Positions 44,571 through 62,634 of a stretch of 64,000 nt of DNA are shown in pieces. Both the position numbers and the translations under genes were made by a program. The stretch covers positions 2,046,001-2,110,000 of the forward strand of contig CP108521.1 in assembly GCA_035999765.1 (NCBI GenBank). Direction: 5' to 3'. The notes under the pieces are model-generated. The model saw nothing but the letters and a program-made list of their open reading frames with translations, was not told the DNA's origin and ran no database searches. The number at the start of each line of letters is the position of its first letter. The first letter of the stretch is position 1. Source of the DNA: Streptomyces sp. NBC_01231 (GTDB taxonomy: Bacteria; Actinomycetota; Actinomycetes; Streptomycetales; Streptomycetaceae).

Positions 44571-44573
44571 ACC

Positions 44574-44599
44574 GTGATCGTGAACAGTGATCGTGAACA
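44574..44599. repeat. perfect tandem 13-bp repeat after the exonuclease gene
   Basis: GTGATCGTGAACA is present twice head to tail directly after the stop codon (44568-44570), and GTGAACC precedes it. A looser repeat of TTCCGCT(G/A)AA at about 44625-44655 follows. The role is unknown; slippage is the simplest source. Confidence 0.8.
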
Positions 44600-44704
44600 G
44601 TGCTCTCGTTCCCCGTGGGCGGGTTTCCGCTGAAGGCGGGCAAACTTCCGCTAAAGAGACCGAGGTCTCCCGCATGAGGACCTTCCACCCGGGGAGATGC
44701 TAGC

Positions 44705-44723
44705 TTAGGTTAGCCTAACTATA
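44705..44723 (+). promoter_or_regulatory. iron box (DmdR/IdeR-type operator)
   Basis: TTAGGTTAGCCTAACTATA closely follows the actinobacterial DmdR1/IdeR consensus (TTAGGTTAGGCTMACCTAA) and ends 17 bp before the start codon of the siderophore-interacting protein. The TATAGG within its right side can serve as the -10 element, so iron-loaded repressor would block transcription. Confidence 0.85.
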
Positions 44724-44740
44724 GGATCAGGGAGGCCGCC

Positions 44741-45586: not shown

Positions 45587-45597
45587 CCCGAGGCGGG

Positions 45598-46374
45598 CTA
45601 CACCGACCGCTGATAGGAGCGGAAGGTACGGATCGACAGCCATACCGCGGCGACCGCCAGCGCGAGCAGCGCGCCGCCCCGGCTGAGCACGTCGCCCCAG
45701 TCCGGATCCCCCGACATCGCCGAACGGCCCGCCACCATCGCCCAGTCGAGCGGGTTGAAGTCGGCGATGTGGCGCATCCACGACGGCATCTGCGCGGGCG
45801 CCATGAAGGCGCTGGACAGGAAGGTCAGCGGGAGCAGCAGGAAGGTGTTGATCCCGATGATCGACTCCCGCTCCCGCACCAGCATGCCCAGGGCGTTGGA
45901 CAGCGCCCCGAAGACCGTGCCGAGCAGCACCGCGGCGAACACCAGGACGGCGATCCCGCCGATGCCGCCGGGGTAGTCGGCGCCGCCGAGCAGCCCGAGC
46001 AGGACGATGATCACCGACTGGAGGGCGGTGACCAGGCCGTTGTTGACGACGTTGCCGTTCATCAGCGCGGCCCTGCTGACCGGTGTGGTCAGGAAGCGGT
46101 TGAGCGTGCCGCGCTGGATCTCGTCCAGTGTGGTCATCCCCGCCCACATGTTGGAGCCGAGGGCGCTCATCACCACCACGCCCGGCACCAGGTAGTCGAG
46201 GTACGAGGTGGTGCCGAAGCCACCCAGTTCGACGACGCCCTTGAAGAGGTTCCCGAACAGGAAGAGCCAGATCACCGGTTGGACGAGGGTGATCACGGCG
46301 AACGCGGGCTGCCGTACGAACACCATGAGTTGACGCTGCGTCATGTACCAGGTCTGGGAGACGGCGGTGCTCAT
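45598..46374 (-). CDS. ABC-2 type exporter permease (DrrB-like)
   Basis: The 258-residue protein has six hydrophobic segments and the ABC-2 signature in the middle (NNGLVTALQSVIIVLLGLL, SNALGMLVRERESIIGINTFLLLPLTFLSSAFMAP read as adjoining blocks). ATG 46374 overlaps the ATPase stop (ATGA), so subunits are coupled. Such pairs export lipophilic drugs or cell-envelope lipids. The PadR gene on the same strand upstream suggests regulation by an exported toxic compound. Confidence 0.92.
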   Translation of the reverse strand: MSTAVSQTWYMTQRQLMVFVRQPAFAVITLVQPVIWLFLFGNLFKGVVELGGFGTTSYLDYLVPGVVVMSALGSNMWAGMTTLDEIQRGTLNRFLTTPVSRAALMNGNVVNNGLVTALQSVIIVLLGLLGGADYPGGIGGIAVLVFAAVLLGTVFGALSNALGMLVRERESIIGINTFLLLPLTFLSSAFMAPAQMPSWMRHIADFNPLDWAMVAGRSAMSGDPDWGDVLSRGGALLALAVAAVWLSIRTFRSYQRSV

Positions 46375-47399
46375 CGCGCACCTCCCGCGAGGACGAGGCC
46401 CTCGTCGCTCTCGCGCTCGGCCCCGGTGTCCGCCTCGGCGTAACGGCGGCCCGTGTACCGCAGGTAGACGTCGTCGAGGGACGGGCGGGCGACGGTCGCG
46501 GTGGCGACGCCGACGCCGGCTCGTTCGAGGGCCCCGAGCAGCGCGGGGGTCGCGGCGGCCCCGTCGTCGGCGCGGACGCTGACGCGGTGCCCGTCGACCA
46601 GGACCTCGTGCACGCCCGGCAGTCCGCCGAGAGCGCTCTTCAGCAGCGTACGGCCGGCTTCGCCGACCGCCGCGCGCAGTTCCACATGGACGGCGTCGCC
46701 TCGGAGTTCGCCCTTGAGGGAGTCGGGAGTGCCCTCGACGACGACCCGGCCGCGGTCGACGATGGCGACGCGCTCGGCGAGCCGGTCGGCCTCCTCCAGG
46801 TAGTGCGTGGTGAGCAGGATGGTCAGACCCTCCTCCCCGGCCAGGCGGGCGATCTCGTCCCACATGGCGCCGCGGGCCTGCGGATCGAGGCCGGTGGTGG
46901 GCTCGTCGAGGAAGAGCACCTCGGGCCGGTGTACCAGGCCGAGGGCCACGTCGAGTCGACGCCGCATACCACCGGAGTAGCCCTTCACCGGGCGCCGGGC
47001 CGCGTCCGCGAGGGTGAAGCGCTCCAGCAGCTCGTCGGCCCGGCGGCTGAGCGCGGCACCCCTCAAGCCGTAGAGCCTGCCCTGGAGTTGAAGGTTCTCG
47101 CGGCCGGTGGCGGAGGGGTCGGCGCCGGAGTTCTGGTTGACCACGCCGATCGCGCGACGCACTTGGTCGGGGTGGCGCAGCACGTCGTGGCCGGCGACGG
47201 TGGCGGCGCCCGAGTCGGGGCGGGCCAGGGTGGTGAGGATCTTGACGGTGGTGGACTTTCCGGCGCCGTTGGGGCCGAGGAGTCCGAAGACGGTGCCCGC
47301 TCGGACGGTGATGTCCAGGCCGCTCAGCGCGGTGACGTCGCCCGGGTACGTCTTCACCAGTTGGCGCGCCTCGATCGCGGGCGCGGAAGTACTGCTCAT
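46371..47399 (-). CDS. ABC exporter ATP-binding protein (DrrA-like)
   Basis: The 342-residue ATPase has Walker A GPNGAGKST, signature YSGGMRRRLD, Walker B VLFLDEPTTGLD and TTHYLEEAD. The C-terminal domain of about 100 residues (LRGDAVHVELRA, SLDDVYLRYTGRRYAEAD) is the DrrA-type regulatory tail seen in antibiotic exporters. It is first in a two-gene operon with the permease. The terminator behind padR implies a promoter of its own in the 183-bp gap, where no clear box was found. Confidence 0.94.
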   Translation of the reverse strand: MSSTSAPAIEARQLVKTYPGDVTALSGLDITVRAGTVFGLLGPNGAGKSTTVKILTTLARPDSGAATVAGHDVLRHPDQVRRAIGVVNQNSGADPSATGRENLQLQGRLYGLRGAALSRRADELLERFTLADAARRPVKGYSGGMRRRLDVALGLVHRPEVLFLDEPTTGLDPQARGAMWDEIARLAGEEGLTILLTTHYLEEADRLAERVAIVDRGRVVVEGTPDSLKGELRGDAVHVELRAAVGEAGRTLLKSALGGLPGVHEVLVDGHRVSVRADDGAAATPALLGALERAGVGVATATVARPSLDDVYLRYTGRRYAEADTGAERESDEGLVLAGGAR

Positions 47400-47526
47400 G
47401 TCGACTGCTCTCTCTGGGATGAGCGAATGTGGTCGCCGATCCGCGTGAAGAGCGCCGGGCTATCCTGGGTGTGCCGCACCTCGATCGCCTGGAACTGCCT
47501 CACGGTGGATCCTGTTCGGGGTTCGA

Positions 47527-47564
47527 AACCCTGGCGGGGCTGCTCCAACAGCCCTGCCGGGGTT
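47527..47564 (-). terminator. terminator of the PadR gene
   Basis: A 16-bp stem with two G-U pairs (47527-47542 and 47549-47564) and a 6-nt loop lies 19 bp beyond the PadR stop codon. Confidence 0.75.
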
Positions 47565-47582
47565 GTTCTTCTCAGGTGCTCG

Positions 47583-48203
47583 TCAGGTGAAGTCCGGTGG
47601 CCACTCCCCCGTCTCGTGGAGCCGCCGCCACTGCGCGACACCCGGCAGCGACTCCGTCCTGATCTCCTCCAGGAGACCGCGCACCCACTCCGCCTGCGCC
47701 TCGGCCATGTGCAGCTGGTACTCGCTCTCGACGAGGAACAGCCGCGGCAGCGTCTCGCGGAACTTGTCCAACACTCCCCGCCCGCCCGCCACCTGCACCT
47801 CCAGGGCGTCCAGCCGCTCCTTCAGCAAGCGCACCACATCGTCGGGCGGCAGCGCGCCCAGCAGCGAGAGAGCGGTCTCGAAGATCGGGAACTCCTTCAC
47901 CGGGACGGCGACGAGGTCCGACAACCACTCGGTCATCTCCTCACGGCCGGCCTCAGTGATCCCGTACACCGTGCGCTCGGGCCGGTTGCCCTGCCGCTCC
48001 ACGTCGGTCACCTCGACGAAGCCGTGTTTCTGGAGGTTCTGCACCACGGTGTAGAGCGAGCCGTAGTTGATCTTCGTGCTGGCATCCTTGCCCTGCTGAC
48101 GCATGGTCTGCGCGATCTCGTACGGATGCATCGGCTTCTGCCAGAGCGTGGTCAGCACGGTCAGGGCGAGCGGATTGCTCAACTTGCGGCGCCTCACGGG
48201 CAT
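47583..48203 (-). CDS. PadR-family transcriptional regulator
   Basis: The 206-residue protein has an N-terminal PadR winged helix (LALTVLTTLWQKPMHPYEIAQTM, INYGSLYTVVQNLQKHGFVEV, YGITEAGREEM) and a helical C-terminal dimerisation domain (Vir_act_alpha_C). ATG 48203 (MPVRRRKLSNPL) follows GGAGGG. It lies upstream of the DrrAB-like exporter on the same strand and divergent from the APC permease. An ATATCGTG/CACGAT dyad precedes it and is likely its own operator. PadR members typically repress exporter operons until the drug binds. Confidence 0.92.
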   Translation of the reverse strand: MPVRRRKLSNPLALTVLTTLWQKPMHPYEIAQTMRQQGKDASTKINYGSLYTVVQNLQKHGFVEVTDVERQGNRPERTVYGITEAGREEMTEWLSDLVAVPVKEFPIFETALSLLGALPPDDVVRLLKERLDALEVQVAGGRGVLDKFRETLPRLFLVESEYQLHMAEAQAEWVRGLLEEIRTESLPGVAQWRRLHETGEWPPDFT

Positions 48204-48240
48204 GACAACCCTCCTCGCTCCCGAATATCCGTGGCCGAAC

Positions 48241-48280
48241 ATATCGTGAACCACGCCCAAGGGCAATAGACACGATGTAT
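48241..48280. promoter_or_regulatory. candidate PadR operator
   Basis: ATATCGTG (48241-48248) and CACGATGTAT (48271-48280) form an inverted pair with 22 bp between arms, 38-77 bp upstream of padR. Half sites resemble the ATGT/ACAT cores bound by PadR proteins. Confidence 0.45.
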
Positions 48281-48363
48281 CGCGATTGAGCGAAGACGGC
48301 AAGGGCGTGAGCACTTGGGACCGATGCGGACATGACCGCGTGACGCGGCCGAAACAGCCCGTC

Positions 48364-48393
48364 CCTAATTTCTGTCACCCGACAGGAATTCTG
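48364..48393. promoter_or_regulatory. second copy of the TetR-type operator, upstream of the APC permease
   Basis: CCTAATTTCTGTC, a 4-bp centre and GACAGGAATT match 24 of 30 positions of the palindrome at 57453-57482, including 13 identical bases in the left arm. It stands about 100 bp before the permease start. This ties the permease to the TetR regulator at 56721. Confidence 0.75.
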
Positions 48394-48495
48394 CTCCTGC
48401 TCCCGCGTTCGCTCTCTCCAGCTCTCTCCAGCTCTTCTCCGCTCTCCTCCAGCTCTCCTCCGCTCCGCTCCTTCGCGCCGAAGGCAGGTGCCGCC

Positions 48496-50028
48496 GTGAC
48501 GACAACCGCCCCCTCAGACGTACGCCCCGATCCGCCCGACTCCTCCGCCGACCGCTCCCTCGCGGAGTTCGGCTACCGCCAGGAACTGCACCGCAGCCTG
48601 GGCCGGTACGCGTCGTTCGCGGCCGGGTTCTCCTTCATCTCCGTCCTGACCACCGTCTTCCAGTTCTTCGCCTTCGGGTACGCGTTCGGCGGCCCCGTCT
48701 TCTTCTGGACCTGGCCGGCCGTGCTGCTCGGGCAGCTGCTGGTGGCCGCCTGCTTCGCCGAGCTGGCTGCGCGCTATCCGATCTCGGGCGCGATCTACCA
48801 GTGGTCGTCGCGTCTGTCGAACCTCACCTTCGGCTGGTTCGCCGGCTGGATCATGGTGATCGGGCAGATCGTGGTGGTCGCGGCGGCCGCGCTGGCGCTT
48901 CAGTTGGTGCTGCCGGCGATCTGGTCCGGCTTCCAGCTGATCGGCACCGACACGGCGGTCACCTCGGCGGACGGCGCGGCCAACGCGGCCGTCCTCGGCG
49001 TGATCCTGCTGGCGCTGACCACACTGGTGAACATCCTCGACAACCGCGTGATGTCGTTGATCAACCGCGTCGGCGTCACCGCCGAGATCATCGGCGCGGT
49101 GCTGATCATCGTCCTGCTGCTGACCCACTCCGAGCGCTCCCCCGGCATCACCTTCCACACCGGGGCCGCGGCCCAGTCCGGCCTGTTCGGGGCCCTGATG
49201 GTGGGCTCCTTCGCGGCGGCGTACGTGATGATCGGCTTCGACAGCGCGGGCGAGATGAGCGAGGAGACCCACCAGCCGAGGCGCACCGCGCCCCGCACCA
49301 TCCTCGTCGCGCTCGGCGCGGCCGGGCTGCTCGCCACCCTGATCGTCCTCGGTGGACTGCTCGCCGCTCCGAGCCTGACCGACGGGCACCTGTCCGTCGA
49401 CGGCCTGAGCTACGTCCTCACCAGCAGCCTGGGCGACGGCGTGGGCCGGGTCCTGCTGGCCGACGTGGTGGTGGCGATCGCGGTGGCGACCCTCGCGATC
49501 CAGACGGCGGCCTGCCGCATGCTCTTCTCGATGGCCCGCGACGGCCGGCTCCCCTTCTCCGCCCAACTCGCGAAGGTCAACCCGCGTACGGGGATGCCGA
49601 GCGCCCCGGCCCTGGTGGTCGGCGTCCTCGCGGCTGTCCTGCTGCTGCTCAACTTCGCCTCCCCGGACGCGTTCCTGGCCATCGGCACCACCTGCATCGT
49701 GATGCTGTACCTGGCCTACGCGATGGTCACCGGCCCGCTGCTGGTCCGCCGTCTGCGCGGCGAGTTCGCCGTCGCGGGCACGGACGAGACCGGGACCAAG
49801 CTCTTCTCCCTCGGCCGCTGGGGCGTCCCGGTCAACGCCCTCGCGCTCCTCTACGGCCTCTTCATGACGGTCAACCTGGCCTGGCCGAGGGCCGCGGTGT
49901 ACGACCCGACGGGTGGGCACTGGTACTTCCAGTGGTTCACCGTGCTGTTCCTCCTGTTCACCGTGGGCGCGGGAGTCGGATACCGGGCCTGGGCACAGCG
50001 AGGACAGGCGGCTTCGGACGGTCGATGA
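48496..50028 (+). CDS. APC-family amino acid/amine permease
   Basis: The 510-residue protein has about 12 membrane helices. The N-terminal APC signature (SLGRYASFAAGFSFISVLTT, ELAARYPISGAIYQWSSRL) and the GFDSAGEMSEETHQPRRTAP loop are characteristic of the subgroup that takes up GABA, choline-like amines or urea-cycle compounds. GTG 48496 follows AAGGCAGGTG. The operator-like palindrome upstream matches that of the DUF1989/carboxylase operon, so I infer uptake of the same substrate (guanidine, urea or a related amine). In other genomes a permease of this kind is annotated with urea carboxylase clusters. The C-terminal 40 residues are cytoplasmic. Confidence 0.9.
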   Translation: MTTTAPSDVRPDPPDSSADRSLAEFGYRQELHRSLGRYASFAAGFSFISVLTTVFQFFAFGYAFGGPVFFWTWPAVLLGQLLVAACFAELAARYPISGAIYQWSSRLSNLTFGWFAGWIMVIGQIVVVAAAALALQLVLPAIWSGFQLIGTDTAVTSADGAANAAVLGVILLALTTLVNILDNRVMSLINRVGVTAEIIGAVLIIVLLLTHSERSPGITFHTGAAAQSGLFGALMVGSFAAAYVMIGFDSAGEMSEETHQPRRTAPRTILVALGAAGLLATLIVLGGLLAAPSLTDGHLSVDGLSYVLTSSLGDGVGRVLLADVVVAIAVATLAIQTAACRMLFSMARDGRLPFSAQLAKVNPRTGMPSAPALVVGVLAAVLLLLNFASPDAFLAIGTTCIVMLYLAYAMVTGPLLVRRLRGEFAVAGTDETGTKLFSLGRWGVPVNALALLYGLFMTVNLAWPRAAVYDPTGGHWYFQWFTVLFLLFTVGAGVGYRAWAQRGQAASDGR

Positions 50029-50076
50029 GTCGCCCTGTCCACGCGCCGAGGCGGCGGGGAGGGCGCCCCGCCGGCC

Positions 50077-50592
50077 TCACAGCTTGCCGAAGACCACTCC
50101 ACGCCAGGTCCAGCCCGACTTGAGCACGATGTTCCGCAGCGGGTCACGCAGTTCCGCGCTGTCGAAGCGGAACGTCTCGGTCGCTTCGAACCGGCCGCTC
50201 TCCCCCCGCTGGACCGTCAGGCGGCGGGACACGGTCCGGTCCGGCCCGCGCGTATACCTCCCCGAGGTCTTGAGCCTCGGCGGATTCCCGACCCGGGTGA
50301 CCTCCCACCCTTCCTCGAGGACCCGGACCTCGTGACGCTCCTGAACCAGGCGCAGCCCGATCCGGACATCGCGCGTCAGCTGTGACTCGATGAAGAGGGT
50401 CTGCCAGGCGGGCTCCGCCACCCGCCACCGGGCCACCAGGTCCGCGGCCTCGTCCGCGGCGCCTTCGCGGATGACGTACGGGACGTCGGGCCCGTTGAGG
50501 CCGAGCAGGGCTGTCCGCACCTCCTCGGCCGGGACCGGTGCGACCCCGTCGGCGGGATGTCTGGTTCCGGTCAGCTTGTCGAAGAGTCCCAT
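50077..50592 (-). CDS. uncharacterised protein of 171 residues
   Basis: The start is MGLFDKLTGTRHP, followed by a PAEEVRTALLGLNGPDVPYVIREGAADEAADLVARWR stretch that reads as an amphipathic helix plus strand. A beta-rich half follows (VRIGLRLVQERHEVRVLEEGWEV, GRYTRGPDRTVSRRLTVQRG). No signal, membrane helix or catalytic motif is visible. It converges on the permease gene and is divergent from the pseudouridine synthase. Similar proteins are common in Streptomyces as I recall, but no function is known. Confidence 0.75.
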   Translation of the reverse strand: MGLFDKLTGTRHPADGVAPVPAEEVRTALLGLNGPDVPYVIREGAADEAADLVARWRVAEPAWQTLFIESQLTRDVRIGLRLVQERHEVRVLEEGWEVTRVGNPPRLKTSGRYTRGPDRTVSRRLTVQRGESGRFEATETFRFDSAELRDPLRNIVLKSGWTWRGVVFGKL

Positions 50593-50729
50593 CGCGTCAA
50601 CCTATGAGCGGGCGGGTCGCCGGTGCAAGATCCGTCCCTTGGGCTGGCCGTCCGGCGAGAAGCCGCAGGGCGGGGCCCTCCCATGACGGAGCGGGTGGTG
50701 GCGCCGTCGGCCTCGTACCCTTGATCCTG

Positions 50730-51728
50730 ATGCGCCGAAAGACACGGATCCCGCCCTCTCCCCTGCCGCAGCGCGACGGGGTCGATCCGGTGCGGGTGCG
50801 GCTGCCCGCGGAGGGGCCCTGGGCCACGGTGCGCGAGCATCTGGTGGAGCGGCTCGCGGCCGAGGCCGGTGTCGTCGAGGGGATGTTCGACACGGGCCGG
50901 GTCGTCGGGGCGGACGGCCGGGCGGTGGCCGCGGACGCGACGTACCAGCCGGGCATGTTCGTGTGGTTCCACCGGGAGCTGCGACCCGAGGTTCCGGTGC
51001 CGTTCCCGGTGCGGATCGTCCACCGGGACGAGCACATCGTCGTCGCCGACAAGCCGCACTTCCTGGCCACCACCCCGCGCGGCAGCCATGTCACCGAGAG
51101 CGCGCTCGCCCGGCTGCGCAGGGAGCTGGACATCCCCGCACTCGGCGCCGCGCACCGGCTGGACCGGCTCACCGCGGGGCTCGTGCTGTTCACCGTACGA
51201 CCCGAGGAGCGGGGCGCCTACCAGTCGCTGTTCCGCGACCGGCTGGTGCGCAAGGAGTACGAAGCCGTCGCCCCGTACGCCCCCGAACTCGCCCTGCCCC
51301 ACACCGTGCGCAGCCGGATCGTGAAGGAACGCGGGGTACTCGCCGCCTACGAGGTGCCCGGTGAGCCGAACGCGATCAGCCACGTCGCACTCGCCGAGCG
51401 GCCCGGCGACGGCACTGGCGCCGGTGGCGGAGGCAACGGCAGAGGCGGCGGCGAGCACGGGCTCGCCCGGTACCGGCTGGTCCCCGCCACCGGGCAGACC
51501 CATCAGTTGCGGGTCCACATGAACACGCTCGGCGTGCCGATCCTCGGGGACCCGCTCTACCCGGTGGTGGCCGACCCCGGGCCGGCCGGTGACTTCCGGC
51601 GACCGCTCCAACTACTGGCGCGGGTCCTGGAGTTCACCGATCCGGTCACAGGGGTGGAGCACCGGTTCCGGAGCGGGCGGGCCCTTGAGGCCTGGAGGTC
51701 GTACGACGGGTGGGCCGCCGGTCAGTAG
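50730..51728 (+). CDS. RluA-type pseudouridine synthase
   Basis: The 332-residue enzyme isomerises uridine in rRNA or tRNA. The catalytic Asp145 lies in AAHRLDRLTAGLVLF, and IVHRDEHIVVADKP and TGQTHQLRVHMNTLGVPILGDPLYP complete the RluA/RluC core. No S4 domain is obvious at the N-terminus. A Gly-rich insertion (GDGTGAGGGGNGRGGGEHG, about residues 228-247) interrupts the late part of the domain and should form a flexible loop. Its 3' end overlaps the convergent P450 gene by 7 bp. Confidence 0.93.
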   Translation: MRRKTRIPPSPLPQRDGVDPVRVRLPAEGPWATVREHLVERLAAEAGVVEGMFDTGRVVGADGRAVAADATYQPGMFVWFHRELRPEVPVPFPVRIVHRDEHIVVADKPHFLATTPRGSHVTESALARLRRELDIPALGAAHRLDRLTAGLVLFTVRPEERGAYQSLFRDRLVRKEYEAVAPYAPELALPHTVRSRIVKERGVLAAYEVPGEPNAISHVALAERPGDGTGAGGGGNGRGGGEHGLARYRLVPATGQTHQLRVHMNTLGVPILGDPLYPVVADPGPAGDFRRPLQLLARVLEFTDPVTGVEHRFRSGRALEAWRSYDGWAAGQ

Positions 51729-53245
51729 CCGCGCCACCAGCGCAGGAAGCGGCGCCAGGCGCCCTGCGGGCGGGCCGGTTCGGGCGTCGGGGCGGGCCGC
51801 GGCGCGGCGGCGGCCGGCGACGGTGCCGGGAGTGGTGCCGACTGCGGTGAAGGCTGCGGTGCCGGCTTGGCCCCGGGCGCGGGTGCGGACTCCGGCTGAT
51901 GGGTACCGACCTGCCACGTGTTGCGCGGCGACGGAATCGGCAGGTGGCCCGGCTTGAGCAGCACGTCCTGCGGCGGCTTCGGCGCGAACCGCGACGGCAG
52001 TTCCACCAGGTGGCGTGAGGACATCGACTCGGTCCAGGTCAACTCGTCCTCGGCACAGTCGAGTTCGACGTCCGGCAGCCGCATCAGCAGTGCGTCCACG
52101 CCGGTGTCGGCGATGGCACGGCCGATGTCCTGACCCGGACACTCGTGCGGCCCGCCGCCGAAGGCGAGGTGGGAGCGGTTGCCCTGCATATGGGCGGCAA
52201 GGTCGGGACGCACCCGGGGGTCGACGTTGCCCGGCGCGATACCGAAGAGCAGCCCGTCACCCCTGCGGATGCGCTGACCGCCCAACTCCGTGTCCTGCTT
52301 GGCGAAGTAGGCGAAGATCGAGCTGAACGGCGGCTCGTCCCACAGGGACTGCTCGACCGCCTCCGGCACCGTCATCTGACCGCCGTTGAGCTGGGCGCGG
52401 AAACGCGGGTCGGTGAGCACCATGCGCAGCACGTTCGCGATGAGGTTGGCGGTGGCCTCGTAGGCGGCGATCAGCACCAGCCGCAGGTGCTCTCGGACCT
52501 CGTCGTCGGAGAGCCGCGCCGGGTGGGTGATGAGGTAGCTGGTGAAGTCCTCCTCGGGCCGGGCGCGACGGCGTGCGGTGAGCCGGCCGAGGGCGTCCAT
52601 GATGTACGCGTTGCTGGCGATCGCGGTCTCGGTGCCCCGGAGCATGTCGCGGGCGGCCTGCACGATGCGGTCGTTGTACTCGTCGGGCATGCCGAGGATC
52701 TCGCACATCACGGCCATCGGCAGGTGCTCGGCGAACTGGCTGACCAGGTCGGCGGTGCCCTCCTCGCAGAAGCGGTTGACCAGGCGCTGGGTGTGGCGGT
52801 TGATGTGCCGGCGGATGCCGCGGGGGTCGATGGTCGAGATGGCGCCGTTGACCGCGCCGCGCAGCCTGAGGTGTTCGTCGCCCTCGACGTGCGCCGCGAT
52901 GGGCTGCCAGGCGATGTGCGGCATCAGCGGGTGGTCGGGCTTGACCATGCCGTCAAGGAACGGGGTCCAGATGCGGCTGTCCCGGCAGAACTGCGAGGGC
53001 GTGCGCACCATGTGCAGGTTCTCGGCGTGTCCGAGCACCGCCCACATCGGCACGTCGTCGTGGAGCAGCACGGGTGCCACCGGGCCGTGTTCGTCCCGGA
53101 GTTGTTCGTACAGGGCGCTGAGGTTCTCCGCCTCGGGGCCGTAGAGCCGGCGCAGTCCTCCGGGGCCGCGGCCGTGGGCGGGGCAGCCGGGCGGCGGGGC
53201 GAGGCCGGCGTCCGTACCGGCCGGGGAGTGGGATTCAGGCGTCAC
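51722..53245 (-). CDS. rarE: conservon cytochrome P450, CYP157-type, without ExxR
   Basis: The 507-residue P450 is the last gene of the conservon. The heme ligand is Cys369 in FGGGPHECPGQ. The K-helix motif, almost universal as ExxR, reads EQSLW at 298-302, so the Arg is absent. This is the known peculiarity of the CYP157 family. The I-helix has AAYEAT in place of AGxxT. The C-terminal 80 residues are a Pro/Ala-rich extension ending RRFLRWWRGY. GTG 53245. It lies 72 bp downstream of the GTPase gene. In S. coelicolor the corresponding rar/cvn9 operon restrains aerial mycelium formation; the P450 substrate is unknown. Confidence 0.9.
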   Translation of the reverse strand: MTPESHSPAGTDAGLAPPPGCPAHGRGPGGLRRLYGPEAENLSALYEQLRDEHGPVAPVLLHDDVPMWAVLGHAENLHMVRTPSQFCRDSRIWTPFLDGMVKPDHPLMPHIAWQPIAAHVEGDEHLRLRGAVNGAISTIDPRGIRRHINRHTQRLVNRFCEEGTADLVSQFAEHLPMAVMCEILGMPDEYNDRIVQAARDMLRGTETAIASNAYIMDALGRLTARRRARPEEDFTSYLITHPARLSDDEVREHLRLVLIAAYEATANLIANVLRMVLTDPRFRAQLNGGQMTVPEAVEQSLWDEPPFSSIFAYFAKQDTELGGQRIRRGDGLLFGIAPGNVDPRVRPDLAAHMQGNRSHLAFGGGPHECPGQDIGRAIADTGVDALLMRLPDVELDCAEDELTWTESMSSRHLVELPSRFAPKPPQDVLLKPGHLPIPSPRNTWQVGTHQPESAPAPGAKPAPQPSPQSAPLPAPSPAAAAPRPAPTPEPARPQGAWRRFLRWWRGY

Positions 53246-53317
53246 AGTGATCGCTCCGAAGTGGATCCGGTGTCTGGGTCTGGGTGGCGGGCGGGCCGGT
53301 GGGGGCGGGTAGGGCGG

Positions 53318-53938
53318 TCACTTCAGCGCGCCCGACATCGCGAGGGAGTGCAGGAAACGCATGAGGGTCAGCAGGGTGTCCCGGCTGGAGGCGCGGCGGC
53401 GCGCGTCGCACTCGACGATGGGGATGTCCTCGCTCAGGTCGAGCGCGGTGCGCAGTTGGTCCATGGGGTAACGGGGCCCGTCCGGGAAGGTGTTGACGGC
53501 GACCACGAACGGCACACCGCGTTCCTCCAGGCGTCCCATGACGTCGAAGCTGATCTCGAGCCGACGGGTGTCGATCAGCACGACCGCGCCCAGCGCCCCC
53601 TCGAACAGGCCGTTCCACAGGAACCAGAAGCGTTCCTGCCCGGGGGTGCCGAAGAGGTACAGCACGAGCTGTTCGCTGATGCTGATGCGGCCGAAGTCCA
53701 TCGCCACCGTGGTGGCCGTCTTGGTCTCGGAGCCGTAGTTGTCGTCGACGCCGACGCCGGCCTGTGTCATGGTCTCCTCGGTGGTCAGCGGTTTGATCTC
53801 GCTGACCGAGCCGACCATGGTGGTCTTGCCGACCCCGAAGCCACCCACGATGACGATCTTCACCGCCGCCTGCGCGGTGTGCGGGAGGTGGTCCTCCGCT
53901 CGTGGACCTGTGAGGGTGTCAGAGTTTTTGAAGTCCAT
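53318..53938 (-). CDS. rarD: conservon GTPase (CvnD/RarD)
   Basis: The 206-residue small GTP-binding protein is of the ATP/GTP-binding family found in conservons. P-loop GGFGVGKTT (about 32-40), switch II FGTPGQERFWFLW and the base-contact segment VAVNTFPDG are all present. It would associate with RarA-C at the membrane in a G-protein-like complex. The start ATG 53938 lies inside the end of rarC (20-bp overlap). Confidence 0.92.
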   Translation of the reverse strand: MDFKNSDTLTGPRAEDHLPHTAQAAVKIVIVGGFGVGKTTMVGSVSEIKPLTTEETMTQAGVGVDDNYGSETKTATTVAMDFGRISISEQLVLYLFGTPGQERFWFLWNGLFEGALGAVVLIDTRRLEISFDVMGRLEERGVPFVVAVNTFPDGPRYPMDQLRTALDLSEDIPIVECDARRRASSRDTLLTLMRFLHSLAMSGALK

Positions 53939-54407
53939 GCATCACCGCTTCGAGAAGGGATCGGTCGGCCAGCGCCTTGCGGATGACCGGGGCCCGCGCC
54001 GTCACCAGTTCGGCGGTCAGCAACTCGCTGACCAGCACGGTCACCACGCTGAACGGCAGGCTCAGATAGGCCGACAACTCGGCCACGGACAGCGGGGCCG
54101 TGCACAGCCGCAGCAGCGCCGCCTGCTCGGGCGTGGCGGAGGCCGGCGGGTCGGCGCTCGCCACGATCAGCGTGACCAGGTCGAGGTCGGTGCGGACGAC
54201 GCCGTCCGGTCCGGTGATCACGTAGAGCCGCTCGGGGTTCTTCTTCTCCCCCTCGGGCTCCTGCTGGTCGTCCGGCGCGTGCGTCGGATCGGCGTCCGGC
54301 AGGGGCTGCGGCTGAGGGGCAGGCCCGGAATACGGCTCGGGATCAGGCCCGGAATACGGCTCGGGCTCCTGCTTGGGGTATCGCCGTCGGCGTTGCGGAG
54401 GAATCAT
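53919..54407 (-). CDS. rarC: conservon DUF742 protein (CvnC/RarC)
   Basis: The 162-residue protein has a low-complexity N-terminus with a duplicated EPYSGP unit and many Pro/Glu. A DUF742 winged-helix-like domain follows (LYVITGPDGVVRTDLDLVTLIVAS, LLRLCTAPLSVAELSAYLSLPFSVVTVLVSELL, ending LLEAVMHGLQKL). It overlaps rarB at ATGA and rarD by 20 bp, so the operon is tightly coupled. Confidence 0.92.
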   Translation of the reverse strand: MIPPQRRRRYPKQEPEPYSGPDPEPYSGPAPQPQPLPDADPTHAPDDQQEPEGEKKNPERLYVITGPDGVVRTDLDLVTLIVASADPPASATPEQAALLRLCTAPLSVAELSAYLSLPFSVVTVLVSELLTAELVTARAPVIRKALADRSLLEAVMHGLQKL

Positions 54408-54811
54408 ACGGTCTGCCCGTTGCGCCTCGGCGGGCTGGTGAGATGCGCGCCGATCCGGATGACCAGGTCACTCATGCGGGCACTCATGTAGCCCGGTTCG
54501 GCGCGTACGTCGGACAGCACCGCGAGATAGGCGTTGGGGCCGGCAGCCATCAGGTAGAAGTAGCCGCCGTGGATCTCGATGAGGACCATCTTCATCTCGC
54601 CCTCGCTGCCCGGGATCTCCTGGGCGACGGCTCCGGCCAGGCTCTGCAGGCCCGCGCAGGCCGCGGCGACGCGGTCGGCGGTGTCCGGGTCGCCGCCGTG
54701 GCGGGCGATGCGCAGGCCGTCGGCGGAGAGCACCACGATCATCTGGATGCCCGGTACGCCCTTGGCGAGGTCCTGGAGCATCCAGTCGAAGTTGCCTCGC
54801 TGCTGGATCAC
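54404..54811 (-). CDS. rarB: conservon roadblock/LC7 protein (CvnB/RarB)
   Basis: The 135-residue roadblock/LC7 domain protein has the typical GVPGIQMIVVLSADGLRIARHG opening, then AGLQSLAGAVAQEI and FYLMAAGPNAYLAVL. Such proteins act as GTPase-interacting scaffolds. GTG 54811 overlaps the rarA stop (GTGA). Confidence 0.93.
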   Translation of the reverse strand: MIQQRGNFDWMLQDLAKGVPGIQMIVVLSADGLRIARHGGDPDTADRVAAACAGLQSLAGAVAQEIPGSEGEMKMVLIEIHGGYFYLMAAGPNAYLAVLSDVRAEPGYMSARMSDLVIRIGAHLTSPPRRNGQTV

Positions 54812-56403
54812 TTGAGGTCCCCCTCGTCGTCGGCCTCGACGTGGGCCGGTTCATTGGTCGGCTGGGTTAATGCGGTGGAGGACGGGCGCTTGAGTCCGTC
54901 GAAGAACGCCTGGACCCACAGGCCGGGCGGGGGCTCGGGCGCCTTCTCCTCGGGTTCGGGTTCGGGCTCGCGCCGGGCGGTCGACCAGATGGTCGGCCGA
55001 CCCTCCCGTTCGGCCTGCTCGATCGCGGCCTGTTCGGCGTACCGCTGGGTGAGGGAGGCCTTGACCCGGCTGCGGCGCTGCGGCAGTCCGTTGGCGGTCC
55101 ACTCGGTGACCTCGGGGACGTCGTCCTCCGCGGAGACCGGAGTGACGAACTTGGGGCTGGTGGGGCGACGCGTCTTGATCGTGCGCTTGGGGCCGGGAAG
55201 GGCCCCGAGTTCGGGCTGGGGCACGGCCGTGGCGCCGATGCCGTGCGCGAGTCCGACACCGGGCTCGGTGGTGAGCATGCCGCTCGGCACGACGAGGATG
55301 GCCCGGACCCCGCCGTACGCGGAGGCGCGCAGCGAGACCTGCATGTCGTACGTCCGGCAGAGCCGGCCGACGACGGCGAGGCCCAGGCGGGGGTCCTCTC
55401 CGAGGTCCTGAAGGTCGACGCCCGCCATGGCCCGCTCCAGCATGCCCTCGGCACGGGCGCGGGCCTCCTCGCTCAGGCTGACGCCGGCGTCCTCGATCTC
55501 GATGCAGACACCGGTCTGCACCTCGGTGGCGGTGACGTGCACCTTGGTCTGCGGCGGCGAGTAGCGAGTGGCGTTGTCGAGGAGTTCGGCCGCCGCGTGG
55601 ATGACGGGTTCGACGGCGGTGCCCTTGACGTTGACCTTGGCGATGGAGGACAGGTCGATGCGCCCGTACTCCAGGATCCGGGACATGGCGCCGCGCAGCA
55701 CGCTGTAGAGCGCCACGGGCTCGGGCCACTGGCGGCCGGGGCGGCCGCCGCCGAGGACGGAGATCGAGTCGGCGAGCCGGCCGATCAGCGCGGTGCCGTG
55801 GTCGAGGCGCAGCAGGTCGTTGAAGACCTCGGGGTTGCGGCCGTGGTCCTCCTCCATCTCCCGGAGTTCGTTGGCCTGCTGGTGGACGATGGCCTGGACG
55901 CGGCGGGCGATGTTGACGAAGGAGCGCTGCGCGGCATCGCGCATGACGTCCTCGGTGTCGACGACGGTGAGCAGCTTCTTGAGCAACGACAGTTGCGCTT
56001 CGCGAAGTTCGCGCCACGCGGGTTCGTAGTCACCGAGGTGGCCAATCACCTCTCCGGGGGAATTCCCGCCGCGCAGCAGCTCGAGCGCGGTCGGCAGGAT
56101 CTCCTTGGCGAGGCGGGTCATCTCCTCGTCGTGGGCGGCGACCCGTTGTTCCAGATACGCACTGTGACGGGCCTGGTCCGCGCTCCGGGCGCGCAGGGTC
56201 CGGCCGCGGCGGATCGCTTCGGCCGCCGTCGCGATCACCAGCAGTGTGGCGACGGCGCCGCACCAGCCGACAGCCGTCCGGGCAGGCGCCGTCACCAGTG
56301 CGACGGCGCCCCCGGTCGCCGCGGCCATCGCTATGGCGGGCAGCAACAACACGCGTGCGTACGGGAGTTCACGGCGTCCTGGAGGAGTTTGAACACTCAC
56401 CAT
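54808..56403 (-). CDS. rarA: conservon sensor kinase-like protein (CvnA/RarA)
   Basis: The product is 531 residues. Two N-terminal membrane segments (about 14-33 and 40-58) are followed by a coiled-coil region with no clear HisKA phosphoacceptor. A GHKL ATPase domain lies at about 250-380: AAELLDNATRYSPPQTKVHVTA (N box), IEDAGVSLSEEA, GLAVVGRLCRTYDMQVSLRAS. The C-terminal 150 residues are disordered and rich in Pro, Glu and Arg. It is the membrane anchor of the conservon complex. ATG 56403 with AGAGGG upstream is preferred to a TTG six codons earlier. Confidence 0.92.
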   Translation of the reverse strand: MVSVQTPPGRRELPYARVLLLPAIAMAAATGGAVALVTAPARTAVGWCGAVATLLVIATAAEAIRRGRTLRARSADQARHSAYLEQRVAAHDEEMTRLAKEILPTALELLRGGNSPGEVIGHLGDYEPAWRELREAQLSLLKKLLTVVDTEDVMRDAAQRSFVNIARRVQAIVHQQANELREMEEDHGRNPEVFNDLLRLDHGTALIGRLADSISVLGGGRPGRQWPEPVALYSVLRGAMSRILEYGRIDLSSIAKVNVKGTAVEPVIHAAAELLDNATRYSPPQTKVHVTATEVQTGVCIEIEDAGVSLSEEARARAEGMLERAMAGVDLQDLGEDPRLGLAVVGRLCRTYDMQVSLRASAYGGVRAILVVPSGMLTTEPGVGLAHGIGATAVPQPELGALPGPKRTIKTRRPTSPKFVTPVSAEDDVPEVTEWTANGLPQRRSRVKASLTQRYAEQAAIEQAEREGRPTIWSTARREPEPEPEEKAPEPPPGLWVQAFFDGLKRPSSTALTQPTNEPAHVEADDEGDLK

Positions 56404-56720
56404 GTGGGCCCTCTGAGACAAGTCGGCGGGGTGTCGGGGGAGCTTGCGGGGGGAACGTCATGGATATGTCGGGATCTTCGTCATGCTTGGGAACAAGCGC
56501 ACGAATACACATCAACTCGGTGCGCTGCGGGCGAGCTTAGTCCGACCGGATCATCGTCGTGTCATATTCAGAGAGCACCTGAAACCGGGCGCGCGAGGGG
56601 AGTACGCTCGAACCCATTTACACGCTGAGGTTCCATTCGTACACGGTGTGTCACGACGAGCAGGCGTGCGAAAACACTCACCGTGACGAGTTACGTGTCC
56701 GTGCGCCGCAGCTCGTCGGC
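56404..56720. other. 317-bp region upstream of the conservon
   Basis: It lies between the rarA start and the end of the TetR gene and must hold the conservon promoter. A few AT-rich patches (around 56555-56570 and 56610-56625) are visible, but no convincing operator or small gene. Confidence 0.45.
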
Positions 56721-57356
56721 TCAGACCCCGACGATGCGCAGGGCCGCGTCCGCCGTCGCCTCCGCGAACACCGAAACGGGCCGCTCGGGGTCGGAGCGGT
56801 GGACGAGGATGACGCCCTCGATGAGCCCGAACACCAGGTCCGTGCGGAGGTCGAGCGCACTCTTGGCGAGCGCGCCACCGGCCGCCGTCGCGGCGATCAA
56901 CTGCCGGTAGGCGTCCTTGAGTTCAGCGCGCACGGCATGGAAACCGGCGAACCGCTCGGCACGCACCTCAGGCAGCAGATAGAGGCCGCCGAGGTTGTGC
57001 GTCCCCTCGCAGAGCACTTCCACGTCCCCCCGGCACAGCTCCCACAGCCGGTCCTCGGCCGGGGCCGTGTCGTCGGCGAGAAGCTCGCGGGCGTAGGCCA
57101 GCGAGGGCGTGACCGTGGACTCCAGGAGCTGGGCGAGCAGCTCCTCCTTGCCGGAGACGTAGTGATACATGGACGCCTGACGCATGCCGGCGCGTTCGGC
57201 GACCGCCCTGGTGGAGGTGGCCCCGTAGCCGAGGGTGGTGAACAACTCCGCGGCGGCCGCGAGGAGTTCCGCACGTGGCTCCAGCCCGCTGTCCGGCCGC
57301 TGCGCGGCTCGTGGCCGGCCGACCCGTCGACCCGGTTGTGCACCCGCTGTCCCCAT
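56721..57356 (-). CDS. TetR-family repressor of the DUF1989/carboxylase operon
   Basis: The 211-residue protein has a TetR HTH at about 25-75 (RAELLAAAAELFTTLGYGATSTRAVAERAGMRQASMYHYVSGKEELL) and a helical ligand domain after it. The long open frame upstream of ATG 57356 runs across the operator palindrome and cannot be coding. It is divergent from the DUF1989 genes. The 30-bp palindrome 97 bp upstream is the obvious operator, and the same sequence at 48364 suggests a second target, the APC permease. The ligand is presumably the pathway substrate or product. Confidence 0.9.
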   Translation of the reverse strand: MGTAGAQPGRRVGRPRAAQRPDSGLEPRAELLAAAAELFTTLGYGATSTRAVAERAGMRQASMYHYVSGKEELLAQLLESTVTPSLAYARELLADDTAPAEDRLWELCRGDVEVLCEGTHNLGGLYLLPEVRAERFAGFHAVRAELKDAYRQLIAATAAGGALAKSALDLRTDLVFGLIEGVILVHRSDPERPVSVFAEATADAALRIVGV

Positions 57357-57452
57357 ACGGTCGATCCTCGCACACCACACCCCTCGGCGATCTTCGTGAG
57401 GGCCCGGTAACCGAGCGGCAACGCGGCGGCAACGCCGGTGACGCGCCTCGCG

Positions 57453-57482
57453 CCTAATTTCTGTCGAGCGACAGAAATTAGG
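57453..57482. promoter_or_regulatory. 30-bp palindromic operator of the TetR regulator
   Basis: CCTAATTTCTGTCG, a 2-bp centre AG and CGACAGAAATTAGG form a perfect inverted repeat with 14-bp arms between the divergent TetR and DUF1989 genes. It is AT-rich in a GC-rich neighbourhood. A second copy is at 48364-48393. Confidence 0.85.
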
Positions 57483-57639
57483 GCCAGGCCACACAAGCCC
57501 CCTTGGCAGACCCAGCGACAGGGCCCCGAAACGGGCCTCAGAAACGGGCCCAGCAGCAAGACCTGGTGCCAAGAACCAGTGCCACGGCCTGGTGACAGAC
57601 CTGGTGACAAGACCGCACCCCGGAGCCGGAGGTCCCGCG

Positions 57640-58464
57640 ATGGCGACAACGACCACTTACGGAGCCCGCGCCCATGCGCGTGCCCAGGAGGGCACCCGCA
57701 GCGAGGCGATGCCCGTCGTCCCGGCCGGGGACTGGCCGGCCCCGCCCTGCGAGGCCGGCCACCTGGTGTGGGCCGAGACCGTCGCAGGCGGCAACTACAC
57801 GCACCGGGTCCTGGCCCGCGGCACCGAGCTGCGCCTGACCGACCTGCGCGGCGACGCCTGCGCCCACCTGCTCCTGTACGCCGCCGACCGGCCCTGGGAG
57901 CGGCTGAACGTCGCCGACACGGTGAAGGTCCAGTGGAACGCGTACCTGGGCCAGGGTCAGTTGCTGCTGTCCGACCAGGGCCGGGTCCTCGCCTCGGTGA
58001 TCGCCGACACCTCCGGCCGGCACGACGCGCTGTGCGGCACCTCCACGCTCGTCCGCAACACCGAGCGGTACGGCGACGGCACCCCGCAGAGCCCCTCCCC
58101 CGCGGGCCGCGAGCTGTTCAAGCTGGCGGCCGCGAAGAACGGCCTTGAGCCGCGCGACCTGCCACCGTCGCTCTCCTTCTTCCAGGGCGTGGAGGTACGC
58201 GAGGACGGCGTCCTCGACTTCACCGGCTCCGCGGGCCCCGGCGGCAGCGTGACGCTGCGCGCCGAGCAGGACGTCACCGTACTGATCGCGAACGTGCCGC
58301 ACCCGACCGATCCGCGCCCCGAGTACGTCAGCACCCCGCTGGAGGTGCTCGCCTGGCGCGCCGAGCCGACCGGACCGGGCGACCCCCTGTGGGACGCCGG
58401 CCCCGAGGGCCGCCGCGCCTTCCTCAACACCACCGAATTCCTCGCCGCGAGGGGGCTCGCATGA
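57640..58464 (+). CDS. DUF1989 protein 1 (urea carboxylase-associated; probable carboxyguanidine deiminase subunit)
   Basis: The 274-residue DUF1989 protein starts at ATG 57640, eight bases after GGAGG; an earlier GTG lies in the leader. Motifs include LRLTDLRGDACAHLLLYAADRPWERLN, RHDALCGTSTLVRNTERYG and VTLRAEQDVTVLIANVPHP. Urea carboxylase-associated DUF1989 pairs have been shown in other bacteria to be carboxyguanidine deiminases acting between guanidine carboxylase and allophanate hydrolase. His/Cys residues in RHDALCG could bind metal. Its stop overlaps the next ATG (ATGA). Which of the two proteins is subunit A or B I cannot tell. Confidence 0.85.
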   Translation: MATTTTYGARAHARAQEGTRSEAMPVVPAGDWPAPPCEAGHLVWAETVAGGNYTHRVLARGTELRLTDLRGDACAHLLLYAADRPWERLNVADTVKVQWNAYLGQGQLLLSDQGRVLASVIADTSGRHDALCGTSTLVRNTERYGDGTPQSPSPAGRELFKLAAAKNGLEPRDLPPSLSFFQGVEVREDGVLDFTGSAGPGGSVTLRAEQDVTVLIANVPHPTDPRPEYVSTPLEVLAWRAEPTGPGDPLWDAGPEGRRAFLNTTEFLAARGLA

Positions 58465-59090
58465 GCACGCGCCCGGACCTGAAAGCACGCACCACCGTCG
58501 TCGCGGCCCGCGCCGCCTGGTCGTCCGTCGTCCGTGCCGGCGAGACGCTCACCATCACCGACCTGCACGGCAACCAGGCCGTCGACTTCCTCGTCTACGA
58601 CGCCCACGACACGTCGGTCCGCTACAGCGCGCCCGACACGATCCACGCGCAGGGCGGCATCTTCCTGACCACGGGCAGCATGCTGATGTCCAACGAACAC
58701 ACCCCGCTGATGACGGTGACCGACGACCAGGTGGGCCGCCACGACACGGTCGGCGGCGCCTGCTCCAAGGAGTCGAACACCCTGCGCTACGGCCATCACA
58801 CCTGGTCGCAGCACGCGTGCGTGGACAACTTCCTCGCCGAGGGCGCCAGGTACGGGCTCGGCAAGCGCGACCTCGTCTCCAACATCAACTGGTACATGAA
58901 CGTGCCGGTCGAGAAGGACGGCACGCTCGGCATCGTGGACGGCATCTCGGCGCCGGGACTGACCCTGACCCTGCGCGCCGAACGCGATGTCCTGGTGCTG
59001 GTCTCCAACTGCCCCCAGATCAACAACCCCTGCAACGGCTTCGAGCCGACGGCGGTGGAGATGACGATCACCGAGGCGGGGGCGGCATGA
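58461..59090 (+). CDS. DUF1989 protein 2 (probable carboxyguanidine deiminase subunit)
   Basis: The 209-residue paralogue has the fuller DUF1989 motif set: LTITDLHGNQAVDFLVYDAHD, RHDTVGGACSKESNTLRYG, CVDNFL and NPCNGFEPTAVEM. It forms the heteromeric partner of the preceding gene, with which it is translationally coupled, and its stop overlaps the carboxylase ATG (ATGA). The Cys and His residues conserved here are probable active-site or metal ligands. Confidence 0.87.
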   Translation: MSTRPDLKARTTVVAARAAWSSVVRAGETLTITDLHGNQAVDFLVYDAHDTSVRYSAPDTIHAQGGIFLTTGSMLMSNEHTPLMTVTDDQVGRHDTVGGACSKESNTLRYGHHTWSQHACVDNFLAEGARYGLGKRDLVSNINWYMNVPVEKDGTLGIVDGISAPGLTLTLRAERDVLVLVSNCPQINNPCNGFEPTAVEMTITEAGAA

Positions 59091-62000
59091 CCTTCGACAC
59101 GCTGCTGGTCGCCAACCGGGGAGAGATAGCGGTCCGGATCATCCGCACGGCCCGTGAACTCGGCCTGCGCACGGTCGCCGTGTACTCCGACCCGGACCGC
59201 CGCGCACCCCATGTCCGGCTCGCCGACGAGGCCGTACGGCTCGGCCCGGCGCCCGCGAAGGAGTCGTACCTCGACGCCGACCTGGTGCTGCGGGCCGCGA
59301 AGGACACCGGCGCGGGCGCGATCCACCCCGGCTACGGATTCCTGTCCGAGGACGCGTCCTTCGCGCGCCGCTGCGAGGACGCCGGGATCGTGTTCGTCGG
59401 CCCGACGCCGGAGCAGCTGGAGCTGTTCGGCGCCAAACACACGGCCCGGGCCGCCGCCGAGGCCGCCGGGGTGCCGCTCGCTCCCGGCACGGGGCTCCTT
59501 GGCTCGCTCGACGAGGCCCTCGACCGGGCCGCGGTCATCGGCTACCCCGTCATGCTCAAGGCGACCGGCGGGGGCGGCGGTATCGGTATGTCGGCCTGTC
59601 GATCCGCCGACGAACTCGTCGACGCCTGGGAGCGGGTGCAGCGCGTCGCCGCCGCCTCCTTCTCGTCCGCCGGAGTCTTCCTCGAGCGCCTGGTCGAGCA
59701 CGCCCGTCATGTCGAGGTGCAGGTCTTCGGCGACGGCGACGGCCGGGTGGTCACCTTCGGCGACCGTGACTGCTCCCTCCAGCGTCGCAACCAGAAGGTC
59801 CTGGAGGAGGCCCCGGCCCCAGGGCTGCCTGCGCACACCCGTGAACGGCTCGCCGTATCCGCGCGCGACCTGTGCGCGTCGATCGGCTACCGCTCCGCCG
59901 GAACCGTCGAGTTCGTCTACGACGACGCCCGCGAGGAGGCGTACTTCCTGGAGGTCAACACCCGCCTCCAGGTCGAGCACCCGGTCACCGAGGAGATCTA
60001 CGGCGTCGACCTGGTCGCCTGGATGCTCCGCCTGGCACGCGGCGAGAAGGACGTCGTGCGCGATCCGGGCACACCCCGCGGCCACGCCGTCGAGGCCCGC
60101 CTCTACGCCGAGGACCCCTCCCGTGAACACCGTCCCGGGGCGGGCCTGTTGACCCGGGTGGAGTTCCCGCCGGGCGTCCGCGTCGACAGCTGGGTGGAGA
60201 CGGGCACCGAGGTGACCACGTCGTACGACCCGATGCTCGCGAAGGTCATCGCGTACGGCCCCGACCGGGCGCACGCGTTGCGGCGGCTGGACGAGGCACT
60301 GGCCCGCACCCGCGTCGACGGCATCGAGACGAACCTGGGCCTGGTGCGGGCGGCGCTCACGGACCGGGACTTCCGCGCCGCCACCCACTCCACGGCGACC
60401 CTGACCGGGGTGAGCGACCCGACCCCGCGCATCGAGGTCGTCTCCGGCGGCACCCTCACCACCGTGCAGGACTGGCCCGGCCGCACCGGGTACTGGCAGG
60501 TCGGCGTTCCACCGTGCGGCCCTATGGACGACCGGTCCTTCCGGCTCGGCAACCGGGCACTCGGCAACGACGAGAGCGCGCCGGGACTCGAATGCACCCT
60601 CCAGGGACCGGTGTTGAGGTTCACGCACCCCACCACCGTGTGTGTGACGGGTGTGCCCGCCGCGGTCACCGTGGACGGTACGGCGGTCGCGCCGTGGGAG
60701 CCGCTGACGGTGCCCGCGGGGGCGGTGCTCGAGGTAGGCGCGCCCCTTGAGCACGGCCTGCGGACGTATGTGCTGTTCGCCGGGGGCCTGGACGTACCCG
60801 CCTTCCTCGGCAGCGCGAGCACCTTCACCCTGGGCCGCTTCGGCGGACACGGCGGCCGCGCACTGCGCACGGGCGACGTCCTGCACGGCGGGACGGTGAC
60901 CGCGGGCGCCGGCCCGGCGGCCGGGGCCGGCCCCGTGCCGCTCGACGACCGACCGGACTTCACCGCCGTATGGCACGTCGGCGCCGTCGAAGGCCCGCAC
61001 GCCGCACCGGAGTTCTTCACCGAGGACGACATCCACGACTTCTACGCCGCCGACTGGAAGGTCCACTTCAACTCGGCCCGCACCGGTGTCCGCCTGGTCG
61101 GCCCGAAGCCGCGCTGGGCCCGCACCGACGGCGGCGAGGCGGGCCTGCACCCGTCCAACATCCACGACACCCCGTACTCCGTCGGTGCCGTCGACTACAC
61201 GGGCGACATGCCGGTGCTGCTCGGCCCGGACGGCCCGTCGCTCGGCGGCTTCGTCTGCCCGGCGACGGTGCTCAGCACCGAGCGCTGGAAGCTGGGCCAG
61301 CTGCGCCCAGGCGACACGGTGCGCTTCGTGCCGGTTGACGTGTCGGGCGGACCCCGCACGCCCATCGTGGACGGCGGCATCCTGGCCCGGGACGGCGATG
61401 TGACCTACCGCCGCAGCGGCGACGACAACCTGCTCGTCGAGTTCGGCCCGATGCAGCTCGACCTGGCCCTGCGGATGCGCGTCCACGCGCTGATGGAGAG
61501 CGTGGCCGCGCACGGCCCGGAGGGGATCACCGACCTCACCCCGGGCATCCGCTCACTCCAGATCCAGGCCGACCCACGGCGCCTCGCACAGCACGAACTC
61601 CTGTCCGCGGTACGGGAGATCACCGCGTCCCTCCCCCCGAGCGACGAACTCGTCGTCCCTTCCCGCACGGTCCACCTCCCCCTCTCCTGGGACGACCCGG
61701 CGACCCGCGAGGCGATCGCCCGCTACATGGCGGGCGTCCGCGACGACGCGCCCTGGTGCCCGTGGAACATCGAGTTCATCCGCCGCGTGAACGGCCTGGG
61801 GTCGGTGGACGACGTGTACCGCACGGTCTTCGACGCCGAGTACCTCGTGCTGGGCCTGGGCGACGTCTATCTGGGCGCCCCCGTGGCCACCCCGCTGGAT
61901 CCCCGCCACCGTCTGGTGACGACCAAGTACAACCCGGCACGCACCTGGACGGCGGAGAACTCCGTCGGCATCGGCGGGGCATATCTGTGCGTCTACGGCA

Positions 62001-62620: not shown

Positions 62621-62634
62621 AAGAGGAACAAGCA

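Follow-up and report, generated by a model that had tools for sequence, protein, structure and literature searches.

The window analysed here is a 64,000-nucleotide stretch of Streptomyces sp. NBC_01231 (contig CP108521.1, positions 2,046,001 to 2,110,000). It carries an APC permease gene and, 9 kb away, a TetR-family repressor gene divergent from a four-gene degradation operon; a similar palindrome precedes the permease and stands between the repressor gene and the operon. The two loci very probably form an AmtR regulon, in which AmtR would bind both operators and repress itself, the operon, and the permease in concert; guanidine assimilation is the most likely pathway. The features are as follows.

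48340–48355, plus strand: GlnR-like box GTGAC-N6-GAAAC, 8 bp before the AmtR site, recognised by its conserved columns.
48364–48393, plus strand: AmtR-type operator of the permease, an imperfect dyad with the right arm GACAGGAA, found by sequence match to the 57453 site.
48496–50028, plus strand: APC permease of 510 amino acids, predicted guanidine importer (TIGR03428, 643.5 bits; PF13520).
56721–57356, minus strand: amtR, TetR-family repressor of 211 amino acids (best solved match 5e57).
57407–57422, plus strand: GlnR-like box GTAAC-N6-GCAAC, 30 bp before the AmtR site.
57453–57482, no strand assigned: predicted AmtR operator of amtR and the operon, a perfect palindrome (palindrome search, window and genome scans).
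57640–58464, plus strand: cgd subunit gene, UAAP1, DUF1989, predicted carboxyguanidine deiminase subunit (TIGR03425, 317.5 bits, cut-off 205.95).
58461–59090, plus strand: cgd subunit gene, UAAP2, DUF1989 (TIGR03424, 329.2 bits, cut-off 284.7).
59087–62620, plus strand: biotin-dependent carboxylase, guanidine type by its diagnostic residues (TIGR02712, 1835 bits, cut-off 1303.85).
62635–64000, plus strand: allophanate hydrolase, running past the window end to about 64302 (TIGR02713, 706.3 bits, cut-off 511.05).

The inverted repeat at 57453–57482 is perfect, as the initial annotation had described it, with 14-bp arms and a 2-nt spacer, and it is the longest of the four inverted repeats found in 47800–58000. 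It lies 96 bp from the TetR start (57356) and 157 bp from the DUF1989 start (57640). The second copy, which had been placed about 100 bp before the permease, was recovered at 48364–48393; the gap to the permease start at 48496 is 102 bp, and 24 of 30 positions, including the first 13, are identical to the perfect palindrome. Chance origin had been considered unlikely, and 100 dinucleotide shuffles of the window indeed gave zero such matches. Assuming independent bases, the expected number of matches at 24 or more of 30 positions is 2.5e-6 per window and 4.5e-4 per genome. When the whole genome (11,338,389 bases) was scanned, TTTCTGTCNNNCGACAG was found exactly at the 48364 and 57453 sites only, and the same two places were the only exact matches to TTTCTGTC-N3-CGACAG. 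With up to two mismatches, TTTCTGTCNNNCGACAG gave 18 + 21 genome matches compared with 14 + 14 for the reversed control, which is near background. The core CTGTC-N4-GACAG occurs within the window at the two operators only. With other flanks it occurs at no fewer than six further places in the genome, at least six being about the chance level for ten fixed bases; hence, the specificity of the search is carried by the flanks. A wide regulon in this genome was rejected because the weaker sites come close in number to those of the reversed control. Visual inspection of the surroundings of six weaker sites (L004, L006, L007, L014, L024, and L030), of which a family search was not part, showed no nitrogen gene.

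Conservation was surveyed in 199 Streptomyces genomes using the pattern TTTCTGTCNNNYGACAGNAA, with the reversed pattern as a control (genomes and loci carry our own G and L handles). The pattern was found in 47 genomes and the UAAP2 protein in 52, with both in 46, and the reversed pattern was found in 0 of the 199. The palindrome is thus confined almost entirely to genomes that carry UAAP2 and is not scattered over many unrelated loci. Permease-type and operon-type copies lie on one contig in 38 of the 47 genomes, 2.4–4.0 kb apart in 8 and 8.2–13.0 kb apart in 30, and on different contigs in two (G168 and G220). Six genomes have UAAP2 without an exact TTTCTGTCNNNYGACAGNAA (G003, G007, G020, G087, G135, and G121). 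In the stretches at the permease of G003, G007, and G020, CTGTC-N4-GACAG with other flanks precedes the permease; the 16 kb examined of G121, a stretch without a permease, gave no exact core. AmtR was detected at E ≤ 1e-30 in 64 of the 199 genomes, including 51 of the 52 that carry UAAP2; the 52nd (G020) has a weaker AmtR, 37% identical, located beyond the carboxylase (L229).

The named genomes gave 80 permease loci among the matches listed, to which the following counts refer. The core site lies between 400 bp before and 60 bp after the permease start used in 76 of the 80 loci (77 sites); one of the remaining four begins at a contig edge, and in the other three the site lies 0.5–2 kb upstream of the start used. 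At the operon, the core site was found within 400 bp in every one of the 63 loci with a UAAP1 gene. The right arm is GACAGGAA in 76 of the 77 permease sites versus GACAGAAA in 63 of 63 operon sites, an asymmetry that is kept. In other lineages the permease directly adjoins the operon, whereas here a conservon and other genes intervene and the permease has its own operator. At L071–L073, L076, L077, and L200–L203, the core site is followed by the permease as the first gene, with AmtR at the 3' end. L070 and L075, stretches without a permease, have sites with three or four mismatches only.

The repressor encoded at 56721–57356 is AmtR, judged by sequence. Its top match among solved structures is 5e57, labelled "Transcription regulator AmtR" (130 bits, E 7.4e-37). 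The first six matches range from 130 to 100 bits and the seventh has 45 bits; among the six, 5mqq and 6gy3 (fifth and sixth) are also labelled AmtR, and 5dxz, 5dy1, and 5dy0 are labelled TetR family. We take 5e57 to be M. smegmatis AmtR, and 5dxz, 5dy1, and 5dy0 are presumably Corynebacterium glutamicum AmtR. The core CTGTC-N4-GACAG of both operators fits the 22-bp AmtR consensus TAtCTGTCa-n2-cGACAGATAT of Chen et al. 2013, which PMC8864220 quotes for Streptomyces avermitilis and others.

All four operon proteins score above their NCBIfam cut-offs, and the UAAP2 start overlaps the UAAP1 stop. The adjacent DUF1989 proteins are of the UAAP1 and UAAP2 types, as expected of CgdAB, and such pairs are now named carboxyguanidine deiminase subunits in PMC11410670. 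The same paper assigns guanidine carboxylases by D at Kluyveromyces lactis positions 1584 and 1330. The carboxylase of the window has D1016 and D793 at these positions, respectively; in the aligned yeast urea carboxylase, position 1330 is N. The first diagnostic position is D in 17 of the 18 relatives with data in one set (L080 has M; two more relatives gave no data), in 9 of 9 in a second set, and in 20 of 23 in a third, with M in L208, L218, and L224. Relatives that have AmtR or its site and gave data have D. Since the carboxylase has both diagnostic aspartates and the genome carries two urease alpha genes over the cut-off, guanidine is the likelier substrate, ahead of urea. The same AmtR regulon could instead serve urea, with the permease importing urea and the carboxylase being a true urea carboxylase as annotated; the NCBIfam names point that way, and PMC4222082 (Jessberger et al. 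2013) speaks of urea. This alternative is unlikely, although it survives better than the others. The diagnostic residues make urea an improbable substrate, and the current naming of the DUF1989 pair, the two ureases, and the related permeases behind guanidine-I riboswitches also stand against it.

No guanidine-I riboswitch (RF00442) was found in 44000–64000 of the window at E ≤ 1, so a hidden riboswitch at the locus was rejected. The search of the whole genome covered guanidine-I, with the stricter filters of Infernal, and guanidine-III, and neither was found. In relatives, guanidine-III matches occur in 36 of 61 genomes (33 over the cut-off). Among the 61 genomes searched, guanidine-I riboswitches were present in three (G044, G045, and G047), each just before a related permease, and neither AmtR nor the core site was found in the stretches examined around them. 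A further copy lies on a different contig of G047. Permeases above 680 bits number 32 in 394 genomes of the class, and all 20 from outside the genus were examined. Rfam scans at the gathering cut-off identified L216, L217, and L218 as loci with a riboswitch upstream of the permease. The 32 permease loci scanned were these 20, L080, L222, L223, L224, seven others, and the window. A riboswitch without AmtR or core site is present in six, AmtR or the site without a riboswitch in 23, and neither in three (L207, L208, and L210). In L208, known from 6.9 kb and with M at the diagnostic position as given above, a core match lies inside the permease gene and was left out of the operator count. Kinship clusters these loci, so that few independent events underlie the exclusion.

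Both promoters also carry conserved GlnR-like boxes, without full a-b-a-b copies. The GlnR consensus is gTnAc-n6-GaAAc (PMC10704036). The test covered 77 permease-type and 67 operon-type sites, sorted by right arm, from the 80 named loci. Before permease-type sites, GTNAC-N6-GAAAC was found with no more than one mismatch at 73 of the 77, exactly in 44, and with a gap of 8 in 70 (0.18% in shuffles, kinship being uncorrected). Before operon-type sites, it was found with one mismatch in 62 of 67, exactly in 0, and with a gap of 30 in 60 (0.27% in shuffles, kinship again uncorrected); the box consensus there is GTAAC-N6-GCAAC. Column conservation is high across the boxes and falls off beyond the operator. 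A conserved GTGAG motif accompanies the boxes before both AmtR sites (48306–48363 and 57396–57452). For Mycobacterium smegmatis, PMC4222082 describes AmtR binding at the msmeg_2184 permease promoter, raised transcripts upon deletion, repression of the operon and of AmtR itself, and GlnR as the master regulator. Together with these data, the conserved boxes suggest activation by GlnR under nitrogen starvation as a second layer of control on top of AmtR repression.

The proposed course of events is as follows. AmtR would bind CTGTC-N4-GACAG in the divergent promoter region of its own gene and upstream of the permease 9 kb off, so that amtR, the degradation operon, and the permease would be repressed jointly. 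The permease would import guanidine, the carboxylase would convert it to carboxyguanidine, the two DUF1989 subunits would deaminate carboxyguanidine, and allophanate hydrolase would yield ammonia and CO2. In nitrogen starvation, GlnR may activate both loci via the box before each operator. The two-locus regulon that the initial annotation had predicted, with one TetR-type repressor controlling uptake and degradation, is thus supported by the comparative evidence as the probable arrangement.

Another regulator, such as GlnR or a different TetR protein, might own the palindrome, with the adjacent AmtR being incidental. A GlnR-like box indeed lies only 8 bp away, and AmtR-like proteins occur outside operon-bearing genomes. 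The match of the core to the published AmtR consensus, the near-constant company of AmtR and UAAP2 in Streptomyces, with G020 having the weaker protein, and the lack of both AmtR and the core site at the six riboswitch loci make this very improbable. The least probable alternative, by a little, is that the 48364 copy serves no function and is a remnant of decay or chance. Although it pairs at only 10 of 14 arm positions, the recurrence of GACAGGAA in nearly all permease sites makes it look kept, not decaying.

Several observations weigh against the AmtR regulon as proposed. The operon-type copy stands alone in 5 of the 47 genomes (G001, G065, G068, G089, and G183) and the permease-type copy alone in two (G014 and G163). 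In G014 the operon copy is present with one core mismatch, and for G163 only a 9.5-kb contig, which carries the permease, is known here. An AmtR-like protein at E ≤ 1e-30 was found in 13 of the 147 genomes without UAAP2; AmtR is therefore not strictly tied to the operon. In L209, L213, L214, L215, and L219, AmtR is a neighbour of the permease and no exact core was found, the approximate sites deviating at three to five of 14 fixed bases. TIGR03428 (permease, urea carboxylase system) is the best family of the permease by far, but the score of 643.5 bits is below the cut-off of 740.45 bits, as were the scores of the five other related permeases tested. The conservation counts rest on related genomes. 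L080, L218, and L224, whose carboxyltransferases have M at the diagnostic place, are riboswitch loci, and no DUF1989 or carboxylase match was found in the stretches examined of L216 and L217.

As regards the remaining genes, the initial annotation had placed an unrelated pseudouridine synthase and a conservon between the two loci, and this was borne out: the intervening stretch holds a PF00849 pseudouridine synthase, a conservon with genes of the HATPase, roadblock, DUF742, and ATP-binding types, and, on the minus strand, a P450-like gene. A paralogous permease (G000:C1:1831976-1833469) is 48% identical to the permease, and no core site and no Rfam match were found within 14 kb around it. A second TIGR03428-like permease at L220:5970-7472, 48% identical and below the cut-off, occurs also in Streptomyces genomes without UAAP2.

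The operon enzymes appear suited to guanidine, and this suggests what the repressor may sense. AmtR proteins linked to the operon might be sensors of the guanidine pathway, a protein counterpart of the guanidine-I riboswitch, each having replaced the other before related actinobacterial permeases; we offer this tentatively, as somewhat more likely wrong than right. Guanidine and carboxyguanidine are the obvious candidate effectors, and release by either is a guess. According to PMC8864220, a small effector of AmtR is not known, and PMC4222082 reports that urea and amino acids fail to release M. smegmatis AmtR. D111, N121, Y126, and E130 are invariant in 40 of 40 aligned AmtR proteins (that of the window and 39 from 52 chosen loci, hits above 90 bits). 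In the alignments, 5e57 keeps all four, and 5dxz has E and I at the places of D111 and E130. If AmtR were such a sensor, D111 and E130 would belong to a guanidinium site, of which these residues give a hint only. The best-ranked matches in the open-licence literature held no link between AmtR and guanidine, the co-mentions being insect topics by title. An exchange of riboswitch and repressor would not have involved an identical operon, because the riboswitch type has a different carboxyltransferase and the L216 and L217 stretches lack a DUF1989 gene. The riboswitch-type carboxyltransferases read (L080, L218, and L224) have no biotin carboxylase domain and align with the window protein only in regions other than its biotin carboxylase part. 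One actinobacterial locus (L217:7469-10725) combines a guanidine-I riboswitch, the permease, and an arginase-family guanidinase-like gene. The best solved matches of this arginase-family protein are 9fek and 7esr/7oi1, labelled agmatinase 2, of which we take 7esr/7oi1 to be the Synechocystis guanidine hydrolase. The trio of riboswitch, APC permease, and guanidinase is shared by comammox bacteria (PMC11410670).

The regulon shows a known arrangement to hold in many further genomes. What releases AmtR outside Corynebacterium becomes a question that a named compound could test directly, and a natural comparison is offered between riboswitch and repressor before related uptake genes.

Among known systems, the AmtRsav regulon of S. 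avermitilis (sav6701; sav6697-6700; sav6709) is alike in the divergent amtR, the operon genes, the operator core, and a permease eight gene numbers away. Binding of AmtRsav upstream of sav6700/6701 and sav6709 was reportedly shown by Chen et al. in 2013; if so, the present finding is the ortholog of a tested regulon. Two further AmtR sites are reportedly present in S. avermitilis. PMC4222082 lists AmtR as sav6701, the carboxylase as sav6698, the amidase as sav6697, and the permease sav6709 as "located elsewhere". Since AmtR, operon, and a permease "located elsewhere" were thus described in 2013, the regulon belongs to a known kind, to which the guanidine reading, the GlnR-like boxes, and the site asymmetry are added here. 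The M. smegmatis system (msmeg_4300; msmeg_2184-2189) is alike in having AmtR on the permease promoter, a very small regulon, and GlnR above; it differs in that amtR does not adjoin the operon. C. glutamicum AmtR is of the same protein group, but it is a central nitrogen regulator with the site CTAT-N6-ATAG and a proposed release by adenylylated GlnK. Riboswitch-controlled guanidine carboxylase operons share the carboxylase, CgdAB, allophanate hydrolase, and importer, and differ in that a guanidine-I riboswitch takes the place that a protein repressor would hold here.

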